Below, piece by piece: positions 8,699-64,000 of a stretch of DNA of 64,000 nucleotides (position 1 is its first letter; every line of letters starts with the position of its first letter). Origin of the DNA: an uncultured Coriobacteriaceae bacterium (GTDB lineage Bacteria > Actinomycetota > Coriobacteriia > Coriobacteriales > Coriobacteriaceae). The position numbers and the translations under genes were made by a program. The notes beneath the pieces are model-generated. The model was not told where the DNA came from and did not search any database. It was given only the letters and a program-made list of their open reading frames with translations. The stretch lies in assembly GCA_944322305.1 (NCBI GenBank), contig CALUOP010000001.1, forward strand, positions 248,001-312,000, in the 5' to 3' direction.

Positions 8699-8842
8699 GT
8701 GCAATCCTCCTTCTCGCAGCCCGCCGGGCGCGGGCGCAGAAACTGCCTTTGTTGCTTGTACCCCATTATGCCATGCCGCCAACGGCTCGTTTTCGCCGAG
8801 AAGAACGCAGGGTGGGTGCGGGCTGCGGGCGGGACGGGGCCG

Positions 8843-9157
8843 GTTGGCCGCGCTGATGACACGCAGACACGCAGTTGGTCGCGATTATCGCAGCCAAGCC
8901 CCGTCCCCCCCCTCGCCTCGGCGGCAAGCGGGGTGGCCGGTTGACCGCAAAAATGACGCACAAGCTCCTGTTGCCCGCTAAGCCTGCATCTAAGCCCTCG
9001 GTTGATCGCGATAACAGCAGGTAAATCCCGTTTGATCGCTCGAACCGCACGCAACTCCCGGATTTCCGGGAGCTAGCTGTCGCCAGAACGACCAAGCGCA
9101 CCGAGCATGACAAAATCGCGATCAACCTGAAACTTGCAGGACACGCCAGCGGCCAAC
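8843..9157. repeat. 30-bp-period inverted array 1 (GTTGGTCGC units around a CCGG palindrome)
   Basis: This occupies most of the roughly 620 gene-free bases between rpiB and tRNA-Arg. Forward units beginning GTTGGCCGC, GTTGGTCGC, GTTGACCGC, GTTGCCCGC, GTTGATCGC and TTTGATCGC start near 8843, 8874, 8940, 8970, 9001 and 9031, that is, 30-31 bases apart with one double step. After the central palindrome CTCCCGGATTTCCGGGAG (about 9054-9071), reverse-complement units end near 9096, 9126 and 9157. Only the first nine or so bases and a few inner positions are conserved. The rest of the gap shows nothing else except the tRNA terminator. Confidence 0.85.
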
Positions 9158-9281
9158 CGGAACCGCGGTTCATCCTTGCCTGACATTCTCGCGGGCAAAC
9201 GGCATATATCGAGAAATGCAAGCCGCCCACCTGCGTGCAAGATCCGCCGCCAACCAGCCGCCGCGCAAACAACCACGGCAC

Positions 9282-49597: not shown

Positions 49598-50010
49598 ATA
49601 TGACCCTTCGGTATAGCGGCGGGCATGGTGACGCCGGACGCACCTCTGCGGAAAGGCGCGCGGCGCAGCGGGAAGCCCGCCGCCCAACGTTCGACGATTC
49701 CCTAGCATCCTACCCGCACGCCGCGCATGCGAAACGCGGCAATCCAGCGGCCGGCGCGCGTTGGGCTCGGGGCTTTGCCCGGCGACCCGTGCTGGACGGG
49801 GCGCGCTGGGCGGGCTGCGCCGGATGCCCCACGTTGGGCAGTGCCCTGCGTTGGACAGGCATTCTGAGCGGCCACGCCGGACGGCCATCTTGGGAAGCCG
49901 CGCCCCAAGAATGTCGCCGCAGCGACCAACCGAGCAGTTAAGAGTCCGCGCGAAGGCCCGCCGCCTGCGCAAGATATCGGGAAGGCGGTTAACTGAACTG
50001 GCGCGGCGCA
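49598..50010. other. GC-rich gap before array 2
   Basis: About 410 bases with loosely repeated CGTTGGGC/CGTGCTGGAC blocks (about 49755-49865) that may be decayed relatives of the array units. No gene or terminator is clear. Confidence 0.5.
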
Positions 50011-50227
50011 GTTGGTCGCGATTTCGACGTTCTCGGAACGGTTAGGAGCGCAAACGTCAGCCAACTCCCGGAAATCCGGGAGTTGCGTGCGGTCGGAACG
50101 ACTAGCCGCTCCTTACATGTCGGAACAGCGTTCAATCGAAGCCCAAGATGTCGCCCGCGCGACCAACCGGAGCCTGGCCGCCATTTCCGCGACCAACCAG
50201 AGCTTAGCTGTCGTCGCGGTGACCAAC
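50011..50227. repeat. 30-bp-period inverted array 2
   Basis: Two forward units (50011 GTTGGTCGC, 50041 GTTAGGAGC) lead to a perfect central palindrome AACTCCCGGAAATCCGGGAG (about 50063-50084). Five reverse units follow, ending at 50107, 50137, 50167, 50197 and 50227, exactly 30 bases apart; the last three end GACCAAC. This is the most regular of the four arrays. It lies between the TPR gene and the PEP carboxylase terminator. Confidence 0.88.
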
Positions 50228-50273
50228 GCGCACGACGAATAATTCGCTACGCGCCATCTCCCTCCGCACATGC

Positions 50274-55641: not shown

Positions 55642-55818
55642 GTTGCCGGCGGCCGGCGCACGCACCGTTGCCGGCGGCCGGTGCACGCATCAGTTACCCG
55701 CAGTTCCGTCGCCGAATTTCCGGTTGGTCGCTCCCACGTCACGTAAATCTCGGAAATCCGGGATTTAGCTAACGTTTGAGCGACCAACCGCGTGTTAGGC
55801 GACAAGAGCGCGTGCAAC
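55642..55818. repeat. 30-bp-period inverted array 3
   Basis: Two near-identical 25-base units (GTTGCCGGCGGCCGG, starting 55642 and 55667) lead to GTTACCCGC (55693) and GTTGGTCGC (55723). A hairpin core follows (GGTTGGTCGCTC pairing with GAGCGACCAACC) enclosing TAAATCTCGGAAATCCGGGATTTA, then reverse units end at 55788 and 55818. It is in the gap between hisS and DUF1015. Confidence 0.85.
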
Positions 55819-55856
55819 CCGCCCCCTCTCTGGGGCGGATGAGACGGGCGCCCCGA

Positions 55857-60922: not shown

Positions 60923-60947
60923 ATTATATCCCGAACATTTCCGAACA
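60923..60947 (-). promoter_or_regulatory. Promoter and direct-repeat operator of deoR
   Basis: On the minus strand TATAAT (60923-60928) is preceded by two TGTTCGG repeats ten bases apart (60931-60947), which could be the autoregulatory binding site. The -35 region is weak. Confidence 0.6.
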
Positions 60948-60970
60948 AAACACCAAGCGCACAGGATGAA

Positions 60971-61232
60971 TGCGCCAAATTAAGCCGTGCCTAGTTTGGC
61001 GCAGAGCGAAAACCCGGTGCACAGAAAATGGATGTCGTTTTACGCGCGAGCGCCAAGTAGACCGACCAGACCCCACTCTGTCTACCTGCGCTTTTCTTGA
61101 GAGACGAGGCGCCTCTACTCAAAGCGTCCCTCTAAAACAACATCCATTTTGAACAGGGCGGGGAAACGTGCCGCGTTCGCCCCGTTCCGTCTTACGAAAT
61201 GCGCCAAACTAGGCCCGGCCTAATCTGGCGCA
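60971..61232. repeat. Fold-back intergenic element, copy B
   Basis: Same layout as copy A (1760-2025): left palindrome (60971-61003), AAAATGGATGTCGTTTT (61025-61041) opposite AAAACAACATCCATTTT (61134-61150), hairpins inside, right palindrome (61200-61232). The rest of the 532-base gap before pyk1 holds nothing else I can name. A single change in the right arm breaks the pairing on the plus strand but makes a G-U pair in a minus-strand RNA. Confidence 0.8.
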
Positions 61233-61384
61233 ACCAGGTAAACGGAAGGGATAAGCTCCACGTAAGCGAGGGCGCTTCTGGCGGAGCAGATCAGCCCGAA
61301 CGAGGAGCGCATGCGCCTTGCGGCGATGCGCGATGAGTGAGGATCGAGGTGCCCGCCAGAAGCGGCCGCAGCGTCGGCATAGGT

Positions 61385-62845
61385 TTAGCGAACCTGGGCC
61401 ACGTACACCACGTTCGTGCAGGTCTGCTTGTCTTGCAGCGTCACCGAGGTGGCCGGGTCGCCCGCCGTGAGCACCACGATGTCGCCTTCGCGCACCACGC
61501 CGCGTTCCTTGGCCTCCTCAAGCGCGCTTTTCACGATGTAGCTCACGTCGCCGATGCCCTCGCGCAGCACCGGCTCAACGCCCCAGTACACCGACATCTT
61601 GCCCACCGCCCACTCGTTTGGCGTGATAGCCAAAATCGGCAGCGACGGGCGGAAGTTCGACACGAGGCGCGCCGAGCGGCCCGTAGAGGTGGGTACCAGG
61701 ATCGCGCGCGCCTTCACGTTGAAGGCCGAGGTCACGGCGGCGAGGCCCATCGCGTTGTTGATGACCGTGGCGCCCTTGGCGTCGGTGTGCAGATCGAAGT
61801 TGGAATGCTCCGGCATGGTGGCCTCGGCGATCAGGGCGATGTTGGCCATCATCTTCACGGCCTCAAGCGGATACTTGCCGGCCGCCGTCTCGCCGGAGAG
61901 CATCACGGCGTCCGTGCCGTCGTTGATGGCGTTGGCCACATCCGTCACCTCGGCACGCGTCGGGCGCGGGTTGCGGATCATGGAGTCGAGCATCTGCGTG
62001 GCGGTGATCACGGCCTTGTAGGCCTTGTTGCACTTCTGGATGATCTCTTTTTGGATGGTGGGGCACACCTCGGGAGCAACCTCTACGCCCAGGTCGCCGC
62101 GAGCGACCATGATGCCGTCGGCCGGCTCCAGGATCTCGTCGAAATGGTACACCGCCGTGGCGCATTCGATCTTGGGGAAGATGCCCACGTGTGTGCCGCC
62201 GTTCTCGTCGCAGAGCTTGCGGATCTCGCGCACGCCCTCGGCGTCGCGGATAAACGACGCCGCGATGAAGTTGATTCCCTCTTTCAGGCCGAACAGGATA
62301 TCGGCGCGATCCTGATCGGTGATGGCCGGCAGGCTGAGTTTGACGTTAGGCACGTTCACGCCCTTGCGCTCGCCCAGCTCGCCGCCGTTCTCGACCGTGC
62401 AGACGATGTCTTGGCCCTCGATGGCGGTCACCGTCAGGCCGATGAGCCCGTCGTCGATAAGGATCGTGCTGCCCACGCGCACTTCCTGCGGAAGCGCCAC
62501 GTGGTCCAGGTAGAAATGCTCGGCCGTGCCCAAGCGCTCCTCGGAGGTCTCGGCCGCCGTCACGGTAACGGTAGCGCCTTGCTCAAGCGTCACCTTGGCG
62601 TGCCCTTCCAGCAGCCCGGTGCGGATCTCGGGGCCCTTCGTGTCGAGCAGGATGCCCACCGGGCGGCCCAGCTCGCGCGCCACGCGCTTCACACGCTCCA
62701 TCCGCACATGATGCTCCTCGTGGCTGCCGTGGCTGAAGTTGAAGCGGGCCACGTTCATGCCCGCTTTGATCATCTCGCACAGGACGTCCTCGTCATCACA
62801 CGCCGGCCCCATGGTGCAGACGATCTTGGTGCGCTTAGTGAGCAT
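61385..62845 (-). CDS. pyk: Pyruvate kinase 1
   Basis: A 486-residue cytoplasmic glycolytic enzyme making ATP and pyruvate from PEP. Motifs: TKIVCTMGPACDDED, NVARFNFSHGSHEEH, GILLDTKGPEIRTG, PKIECATAVYHFDEI (catalytic Lys), ARGDLGVEVAPE and [19 protein letters not shown]-terminal domain completes the protein, without the extra PEP-utilising domain of some Bacilli. A second paralogue follows to the right. Confidence 0.97.
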   Translation of the reverse strand: MLTKRTKIVCTMGPACDDEDVLCEMIKAGMNVARFNFSHGSHEEHHVRMERVKRVARELGRPVGILLDTKGPEIRTGLLEGHAKVTLEQGATVTVTAAETSEERLGTAEHFYLDHVALPQEVRVGSTILIDDGLIGLTVTAIEGQDIVCTVENGGELGERKGVNVPNVKLSLPAITDQDRADILFGLKEGINFIAASFIRDAEGVREIRKLCDENGGTHVGIFPKIECATAVYHFDEILEPADGIMVARGDLGVEVAPEVCPTIQKEIIQKCNKAYKAVITATQMLDSMIRNPRPTRAEVTDVANAINDGTDAVMLSGETAAGKYPLEAVKMMANIALIAEATMPEHSNFDLHTDAKGATVINNAMGLAAVTSAFNVKARAILVPTSTGRSARLVSNFRPSLPILAITPNEWAVGKMSVYWGVEPVLREGIGDVSYIVKSALEEAKERGVVREGDIVVLTAGDPATSVTLQDKQTCTNVVYVAQVR

Positions 62846-63017
62846 GCTGCTCCTCCTCACGTTAACGCCCGTAGCTCCCCAGCAACAGGCTTTCTGCGTA
62901 CTTTACCCGCAACGAGAAGAACCAAGGCGCACGCGGCCGAACAATTCCGGAAGCGGCACCAAGCGCCGGGGCATTTGGATGAGGGAGACTGGACGCAGCT
63001 GCGGCGCGTCCCTGTCA

Positions 63018-63331
63018 GCTGGCCGCAGCTGCAGCGCACCAGGGCGCTGGTTGACTGCGATCTTGTTGTCCAAGCGCCCAGTCAGGCGCAAGCTTGTCGC
63101 CCAAGACGATGGTTGGTCGCGACCCTATCGCGCAGAGCGGAGGTTGGCCGCGGGCCCTATCACCCGGGACGATAGTTGATCGCACTTTCGTCACGAGCAG
63201 AACAGTTAACCGCACAAACCGCAGCCAACTCCCGATTTTCCGAGAATTACGCGTCGCCGAAGCGACCAACCGGTCCTTAGGCGTCGAGCCAGCGACCAAC
63301 CCGGCCATCAGCGGTCAACCCCGCGGCCAAC
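63018..63331. repeat. 30-bp-period inverted array 4
   Basis: Seven forward units start near 63018, 63050, 63081, 63112, 63143, 63175 and 63205 (steps 30-32), with GTTGGTCGC, GTTGGCCGC, GTTGATCGC and GTTAACCGC heads. A central CTCCCGATTTTCCGAGAATT palindrome follows (about 63228-63247), then reverse units ending at 63270, 63300 and 63331, with an extra one at 63319. It is the longest array and separates the two pyruvate kinases. Confidence 0.86.
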
Positions 63332-63368
63332 CACAGCTTGAGAGCACACCCAACCCCGTAAGACGAAA

Positions 63369-63414: not shown

Positions 63415-64000
63415 TTAGCGCACCTGGGCCACATACACCACGTTCGTGCTCGTGGTCTGCTTCTTGCTCATATCCTCGATGGTCACCGAGGTCGCCGGGT
63501 CGCCCGCCGTGATGACCACAATGTCGCCTTCCTTGGCAAAGCCGCGCTCCTTGGCCTCGTCGATGGCACCCGAGACAATGAAGCGCACGTCGCCCATACC
63601 CGGACGGCACACCGGCTCAACGCCCCAGTACAGCGTCATCTTGTTGACGGCCCACCAGTACGGCGTGATGGCCAGGATCGGCAGCGACGGGCGGAAGTTC
63701 GACACGAGGCTCGCCGAGCGGCCCGTGAACGTGGGCACCAGGATCGCGCGCGCCTTCACGTTGAAGGCCGTGTTCACCGCGGCCAGGCCCACGGCGTTGT
63801 TGATGACGGTGACGCCCTTCTCGTCCGTGTGAAGGTCGAAGGTGCGGTGCTCAGGCAGGGTGGCCTCGGCGATAAGCGCCACGTTGGCCATCATCTGCAC
63901 CGCCTGCACTGGATACTTGCCAGCCGCTGTCTCGCCGGAGAGCATGACGGCGTCCGTGCCGTCGTCAATGGCGTTGGCGACGTCGGTAACCTCGGCGCGC
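63415..64000 (-). CDS. pyk: Pyruvate kinase 2, N-terminal part beyond the right edge
   Basis: The last roughly 195 residues of a pyruvate kinase, ending VYVAQVR like pyk1. [53 protein letters not shown] and [16 protein letters not shown] align with pyk1 nearly residue by residue. The copies diverge most in the last 20 residues (SKKQTTSTN added). The full gene begins outside the window. Confidence 0.93.

Follow-up and report, generated by a model that had tools for sequence, protein, structure and literature searches.

About 59 intergenic arrays of degenerate 30-bp units, arranged in two arms around a central palindrome, were found by computation in the genome of an uncultured Coriobacteriaceae bacterium (2.35 Mb in 15 contigs); the units are locked to the helical phase of DNA, A/T and G/C are phased along the arrays, the unit motif is under purifying selection, and the family is nearly restricted to one species. 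On balance, the arrays probably represent dimeric operators on which a putative DNA-binding protein would assemble cooperatively at chromosome-organizing or topological sites.

Inward-facing arrays in the 64-kb window

The window, i.e., the whole stretch of 64,000 nucleotides that was analyzed (contig C1, 248001-312000), had been described as containing four loci with inward-facing GTTGGTCGC-like units around a palindrome. Direct reading of the loci confirmed this arrangement at all four, where units start with GTTGGTCGC or close variants, point at the palindrome, and are inverted past it. The features are as follows.

50009-50229, unstranded: focal element (two left units, palindrome, five right units), flanked by a TPR-protein gene and the PEP carboxylase gene, which are both on the minus strand
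50009-50063, plus strand: focal left arm, with unit 2 at 50009-50038 (30 nt) and unit 1 at 50039-50063 (25 nt)
50064-50083, plus strand: focal central palindrome ACTCCCGGAAATCCGGGAGT, with zero mismatches to the family consensus
50084-50229, minus strand: focal right arm, five inward-reading units of 25, 30, 31, 30, and 30 nt
49909-49995, minus strand: two extra units left of the focal element, pointing away from it (heads at 49909 and 49972)
8841-9202, unstranded: second array around the palindrome at 9054-9073, with six units facing right and four facing left
55691-55820, unstranded: third array, two units per side of the palindrome at 55746-55765
62986-63333, unstranded: fourth array, palindrome at 63228-63247, three strong units per side (63110-63334) and weaker ones further left

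The second array is flanked by a gene for an RpiB-type isomerase and by a tRNA gene; the third lies between hisS and a DUF1015 gene, and the fourth between a pyruvate kinase gene and a stand-alone PK_C gene; the third is missing from the orthologous gap of the sister genome G003. The match to the unit motif is weak at 55642-55690 and at about 62986-63109. The preliminary description placed the last five units of the focal element exactly 30 bases apart, which is nearly right: the spacings of the right arm from the palindrome outwards are 25, 30, 31, 30, and 30, so that the last three heads (50159, 50189, and 50219) are exactly 30 apart but one spacing is 31. The statement that the rest of each unit varies had to be dropped, as the unit contains a second conserved box, WWW-CGnCAnYTAAG.

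The arrays belong to a genome-wide family

Searching the genome with patterns and a profile placed the four loci within a family of about 59 intergenic arrays, a count that combines pattern, profile, and sequence-model searches and may be low. The pattern GTTGGTCGC-N18-26-GTTGGTCGC matched 24 times, always at 30-31 bp, with no match in the reversed control, and a 24-bp unit profile gave 534 matches in 411 kb of array loci compared to 6 in the reversed sequence. When mismatches were allowed, a search for the palindrome ACTCCCGGAAATCCGGGAGT located 42 elements in the loci examined. Both arms follow a near-rigid spacing of 25, 30, 31, and 30/31 nt from the palindrome outwards. Arrays contain between a few and 20 units and reach about 700 bp. 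The median identity of copies in the units is only about 59%, and the unit consensus is position-specific. Elements are also polar, since in nearly every one unit 2 of one arm has TAA at bases 23-25 and unit 2 of the other arm does not; in the focal element, the right arm is of the TAA type and the left arm of the non-TAA type.

The copies are thus numerous and their spacing is conserved. Decayed coding sequence was rejected as their origin because the 30/31-nt spacing breaks the reading frame and the units avoid genes. As first proposed, the arrays are neither a simple satellite, given that the units are degenerate, invert at the palindrome, and obey a spacing rule, nor a CRISPR array. CRISPR arrays consist of near-identical repeats in a single orientation with unique spacers, whereas the units here are degenerate, run head to tail, and are inverted at the palindrome. 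Very recent local duplications were seen next to arrays (L204 3610-3929, 127 bp at 100% with a period of 193 bp; L190 3178-3384, 114 bp at 96% with a period of 93 bp), which suggests that arrays can grow via tandem duplication.

Unit spacing is locked to the helical repeat

Adjacent units on the same strand were 30 or 31 bp apart in 251 cases, and the other adjacent spacings were 41-44, 51-53, 60-63, 71-74, 82, 93-95, 104, 113-114, 145, and 156 bp. Taken together, these correspond to 3, 4, 5, 6, 7, 8, 9, 10, 11, 14, and 15 helical turns, with about 10.35 bp per turn; as in cooperative phased operator arrays, the sites are separated by integral helical turns. When the 30/31-bp spacings were left out, phase locking at a period of about 10.35 bp persisted (Rayleigh R = 0.81, n = 127 spacings), and with one spacing per locus R was 0.78 (n = 37), a statistic that never exceeded 0.49 in 20,000 uniform draws. 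The residual standard deviation of spacings from multiples of about 10.35 bp was 1.1 bp, compared to 3.0 bp if random. Some longer spacings may conceal a weak unit, which leaves the phase result unaffected. Facing pairs across the palindrome were mostly 46 bp apart, and the phase of units relative to the palindrome was retained at 200-300 bp (R = 0.79) and at 300-450 bp (R = 0.67). The earlier remark that about three helical turns separate equivalent sites fits these data, in which the spacing keeps to the helical repeat throughout, and the suggestion of DNA-bridging sites is to that extent in line with them.

The base composition is phased as well. A/T runs peak at 0, 10, 20, 31, 40, 51, 61, and 71 bp on both sides (period of 10.1-10.3 bp, above every shuffle), and, with the elements aligned on their centers, the peaks continue as far as 220 bp while G/C shows the opposite phase, a pattern resembling that of DNA bent around a protein. 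Linkers of 41-43 bp add a turn without an A/T run, so continuous wrapping is not needed and binding on the same face may suffice; the phase between units counts more than continuous wrapping.

Phased A/T runs could also mean that the arrays are strong DNA gyrase sites like the Mu SGS or BIME-2, in which such runs would wrap the DNA around gyrase and a 4-bp AAAT center would be cleaved. The gyrase motif of E. coli spans about 130 bp, with phased G/C in its arms, a 4-bp stagger, and a non-periodic 36-bp center, and is too degenerate for motif finders; gyrase also favors intergenic BIME-2 repeats (PMC6379681). The arrays recall this motif in that their A/T content is phased across more than 130 bp, with 4 bp of A/T at the center, and they share with it and with the Mu strong gyrase site a phased A/T-G/C composition over more than 100 bp and a central 4-bp site. 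Unlike gyrase sites, however, they combine a periodic center with high sequence specificity, TT at unit positions 3-4 being 96-99% conserved; they are present in about 59 copies, are several times longer (to about 700 bp), and include the 41-43-bp linkers lacking an A/T run. A gyrase site would, moreover, give no reason for the restriction to this species, and we regard this explanation as improbable.

A dyad in the unit points to a probable dimeric operator

Within the unit profile, dyad symmetry is best at base 14, where it takes the form TTR-nnn-G-(9 bp)-C-nnn-YAA, with an A/T center and a span of about 2.5 turns. Within the element, dyads are located about 0, 20.5, 50.5, 81.5, and 111.5 bp from the center on each side. 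The assembly that we infer, with a dimeric protein, its cooperativity, bending, and a chromosomal role, would proceed as follows. Each element would be an assembly site for a nucleoprotein complex on double-stranded DNA, and each 30-bp unit an imperfect dyad operator for one dimer of the helix-turn-helix type, contacting two major grooves. Dimers would fill the units successively on one face of the helix, from the palindrome outwards, with the two arms facing the central site, and would touch across whole helical turns, so that 150-700 bp of DNA would be bent or wrapped in a complex with a chromosome-organizing or topological role. A bolder version, which we consider speculative and rather unlikely, would be a sequence-programmed chromatin, where a putative acquired protein, assembled on helix-phased operators that number in the hundreds and occupy about 60 sites, would bend DNA in a nucleosome-like fashion and add a new layer of chromosome organization. 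Lrp/AsnC proteins, the binder first suspected, were rejected, as PF01037 was detected in none of 11 genomes, including this one, with positive controls detected.

A different function had been envisaged for the symmetry of the arms, namely, one long hairpin or an mRNA 3′ structure, i.e., a structured RNA or cruciform in which the arms pair. Single sequences do fold well (z of -3.5 and -3.2), because both arms share the consensus in inverse orientation. However, complementarity between the two arms of an element is lower than between arms paired at random (0.541 versus 0.564 for shuffled arms; z about -3), so a co-evolving hairpin is not supported, and specific positions differ systematically between the two arms. 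The compensatory changes in paired positions that had been proposed as a check did not exceed chance: the RNAalifold covariation term was -0.02 kcal/mol, i.e., no gain, the coupled positions were neighboring bases within a unit, and intra-unit pair covariation was absent. An Rfam search of the window returned only tRNAs, with no match to the arrays, and the spacings match the helical repeat of B-DNA, roughly 10.4 bp. A paired-arm structure is therefore very improbable.

The sites appear to be maintained between genes

In the ten closest copy pairs, highly conserved unit positions differed at 8.6%, compared to 35.5% for spacer positions (p = 2e-23). The local tandem duplicate at L211, which has probably stayed in place ever since it arose, showed the same trend, with differences at 2 of 54 motif and 10 of 48 spacer positions. 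As motif positions change four times less than spacers between the closest copies, and are conserved in this duplicate too, the sites appear to be under selection and kept where they stand.

Although 70% of the DNA concerned is coding, 393 of 410 units fall outside predicted genes, as called by a simple codon-usage finder rather than taken from an annotation. The gaps that contain arrays are long (median of 915 bp versus 106 bp) and are flanked by unrelated housekeeping genes without a common theme. With about 59 sites per chromosome between such genes, a chromosomal role fits better than the control of one regulon. Of 29 tandem contexts, 23 have the TAA arm upstream relative to transcription (p = 0.002, a post hoc observation). 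This polarity may reflect a connection to transcription or to the element's mode of spread; it is not predicted by a purely architectural role and counts against it.

The family is nearly confined to one species

The paired GTTGGTCGC pattern was absent from 59 other genomes and from any other of the 67 genomes of the bacterial family, and plasmid, phage, and viral collections contained no match to the arrays. The search of related Coriobacteriia that had been suggested detected the family in two of the 298 genomes of the class only, i.e., this genome, the single one available for its species, and its sister G003. G003 has three copies, two of which lie in tracts that are 95-98% identical to this genome, compared to 82-87% elsewhere; recombination of the flanking DNA probably brought these two along. 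The array is missing from G003 at the orthologous gaps that were examined; the family thus expanded in this species or was lost in G003. For a core function of the chromosome, confinement to two species would be unusual, and it counts against a chromosomal role.

Dispersed repeats in bacteria are usually interpreted as remnants of mobile elements or as hairpins in RNA, and MITEs and foldback elements with subterminal repeats have inverted arms of short repeats and amplify in a species-specific manner. The arrays, which share these two traits, might be a MITE-like, non-autonomous mobile or amplifying element that expanded in this species, its arms being arrays for transposase binding and its phasing a product of transpososome assembly. 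The distribution suits such an element, with 59 or more copies scattered over this genome against 3 in G003 and none in the 296 other genomes of the class, as do the empty orthologous gaps, the two G003 copies that probably moved with their flanks, and the bias in arm polarity. Against it, array length is variable, and target duplications or constant ends were not definable, the intergenic DNA of G003 being too diverged to set insertion ends. Among the about 45 array-flanking proteins scanned there was no candidate transposase. The conservation of the motif within the L211 duplicate would not be shown by dead MITE copies. The mobile element raised in the preliminary description agrees with a lineage-specific family missing from orthologous gaps, but neither a transposase nor a target duplication was found, and we consider it rather unlikely.

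Two candidate partners were rejected. The single RAYT-like gene (Y1_Tnp, G000:C4:265091) has no array units in the 9 kb around it. A serine resolvase gene follows two adjacent arrays at L215 3054-4609, in a 1.8-kb stretch that is missing from G003, and this resolvase is common in relatives without arrays.

Comparison with known systems

Returning to phased operators, the closest parallels share parts of the architecture described here. The REP/BIME repeats of E. coli, including the gyrase-bound BIME-2, are likewise dispersed, intergenic, modular, of alternating orientation, lineage-specific, and protein-binding (putatively so for the arrays). The arrays differ from them in their direct repeats of about 30 bp, two inward arms, helical-turn spacing, and palindrome, and the GTRG hairpin of a REP unit was not apparent in the unit profile, which is a 26-bp imperfect dyad. 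The Fis sites upstream of rrnB P1 form a helically phased operator group, at about 3 and 4 turns, with dyad sites on one DNA face as in the arrays; unlike Fis groups, the arrays comprise up to 20 sites in mirrored arms at about 59 loci beside unrelated genes. Plasmid iterons and centromere repeats of the parC/tubC type are tandem sites that nucleate protein assembly, whereas the arrays are dispersed over the chromosome and mirrored around a palindrome, and no partition genes were found among the array-flanking genes scanned. In contrast to MITEs and foldback elements, no ends or target duplications were definable for the arrays, and their motif positions are under purifying selection in place. 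BIMEs, strong gyrase sites, phased operators, iterons, and MITEs each share some defining traits of the arrays, and none has all of them.

No report of such arrays was found in our literature search. Protein-binding arrays and dispersed repeats are known separately; as far as the literature searched goes, their combination with genome-wide helical phase locking is undescribed. Helical phase is preserved in the DNA itself across hundreds of base pairs, at dozens of loci that are under selection, and this record points to large DNA-protein assemblies in a little-studied lineage, with a putative protein lining one face of the DNA at many places of the chromosome in almost no other species. The binder, once identified, could turn out to be a new nucleoid protein or to belong to a transposition machinery not seen before, or it could disclose a topological site of a new kind.

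Other repeats and genes near the arrays

A second dispersed repeat of about 250-300 bp has near-identical end hairpins (TCTTACGAAATGCGCCAAATTAGGC...TTTGGCGCA) and an inner inverted repeat (AAAATGGATGTCGTTTT/AAAACNACATCCATTTT), and adjoins three of the arrays. Its copies are as follows.

Window: 60940-61260 and 1740-2060
L179: 3610-3930
L192: 3720-4050
L217: 895-1216
L198: 360-580

The RAYT-like Y1_Tnp gene (G000:C4:265091-265420; L281 3666-4460) has its own flanking GGGTTGGTTGGAACACGTCCCCAAC-type repeats, which are unrelated to the arrays. The high-identity tracts L216/L248 and L181/L249 (95-98% between two species otherwise 82-87% alike) suggest recent recombination between them. Finally, the stand-alone pyruvate kinase C-terminal (PK_C) domain (window 63415-63999, minus strand) lies next to the full pyruvate kinase gene (61385-62860); DNA identity of 81% suggests a partial duplication, which seems to be common to G003.
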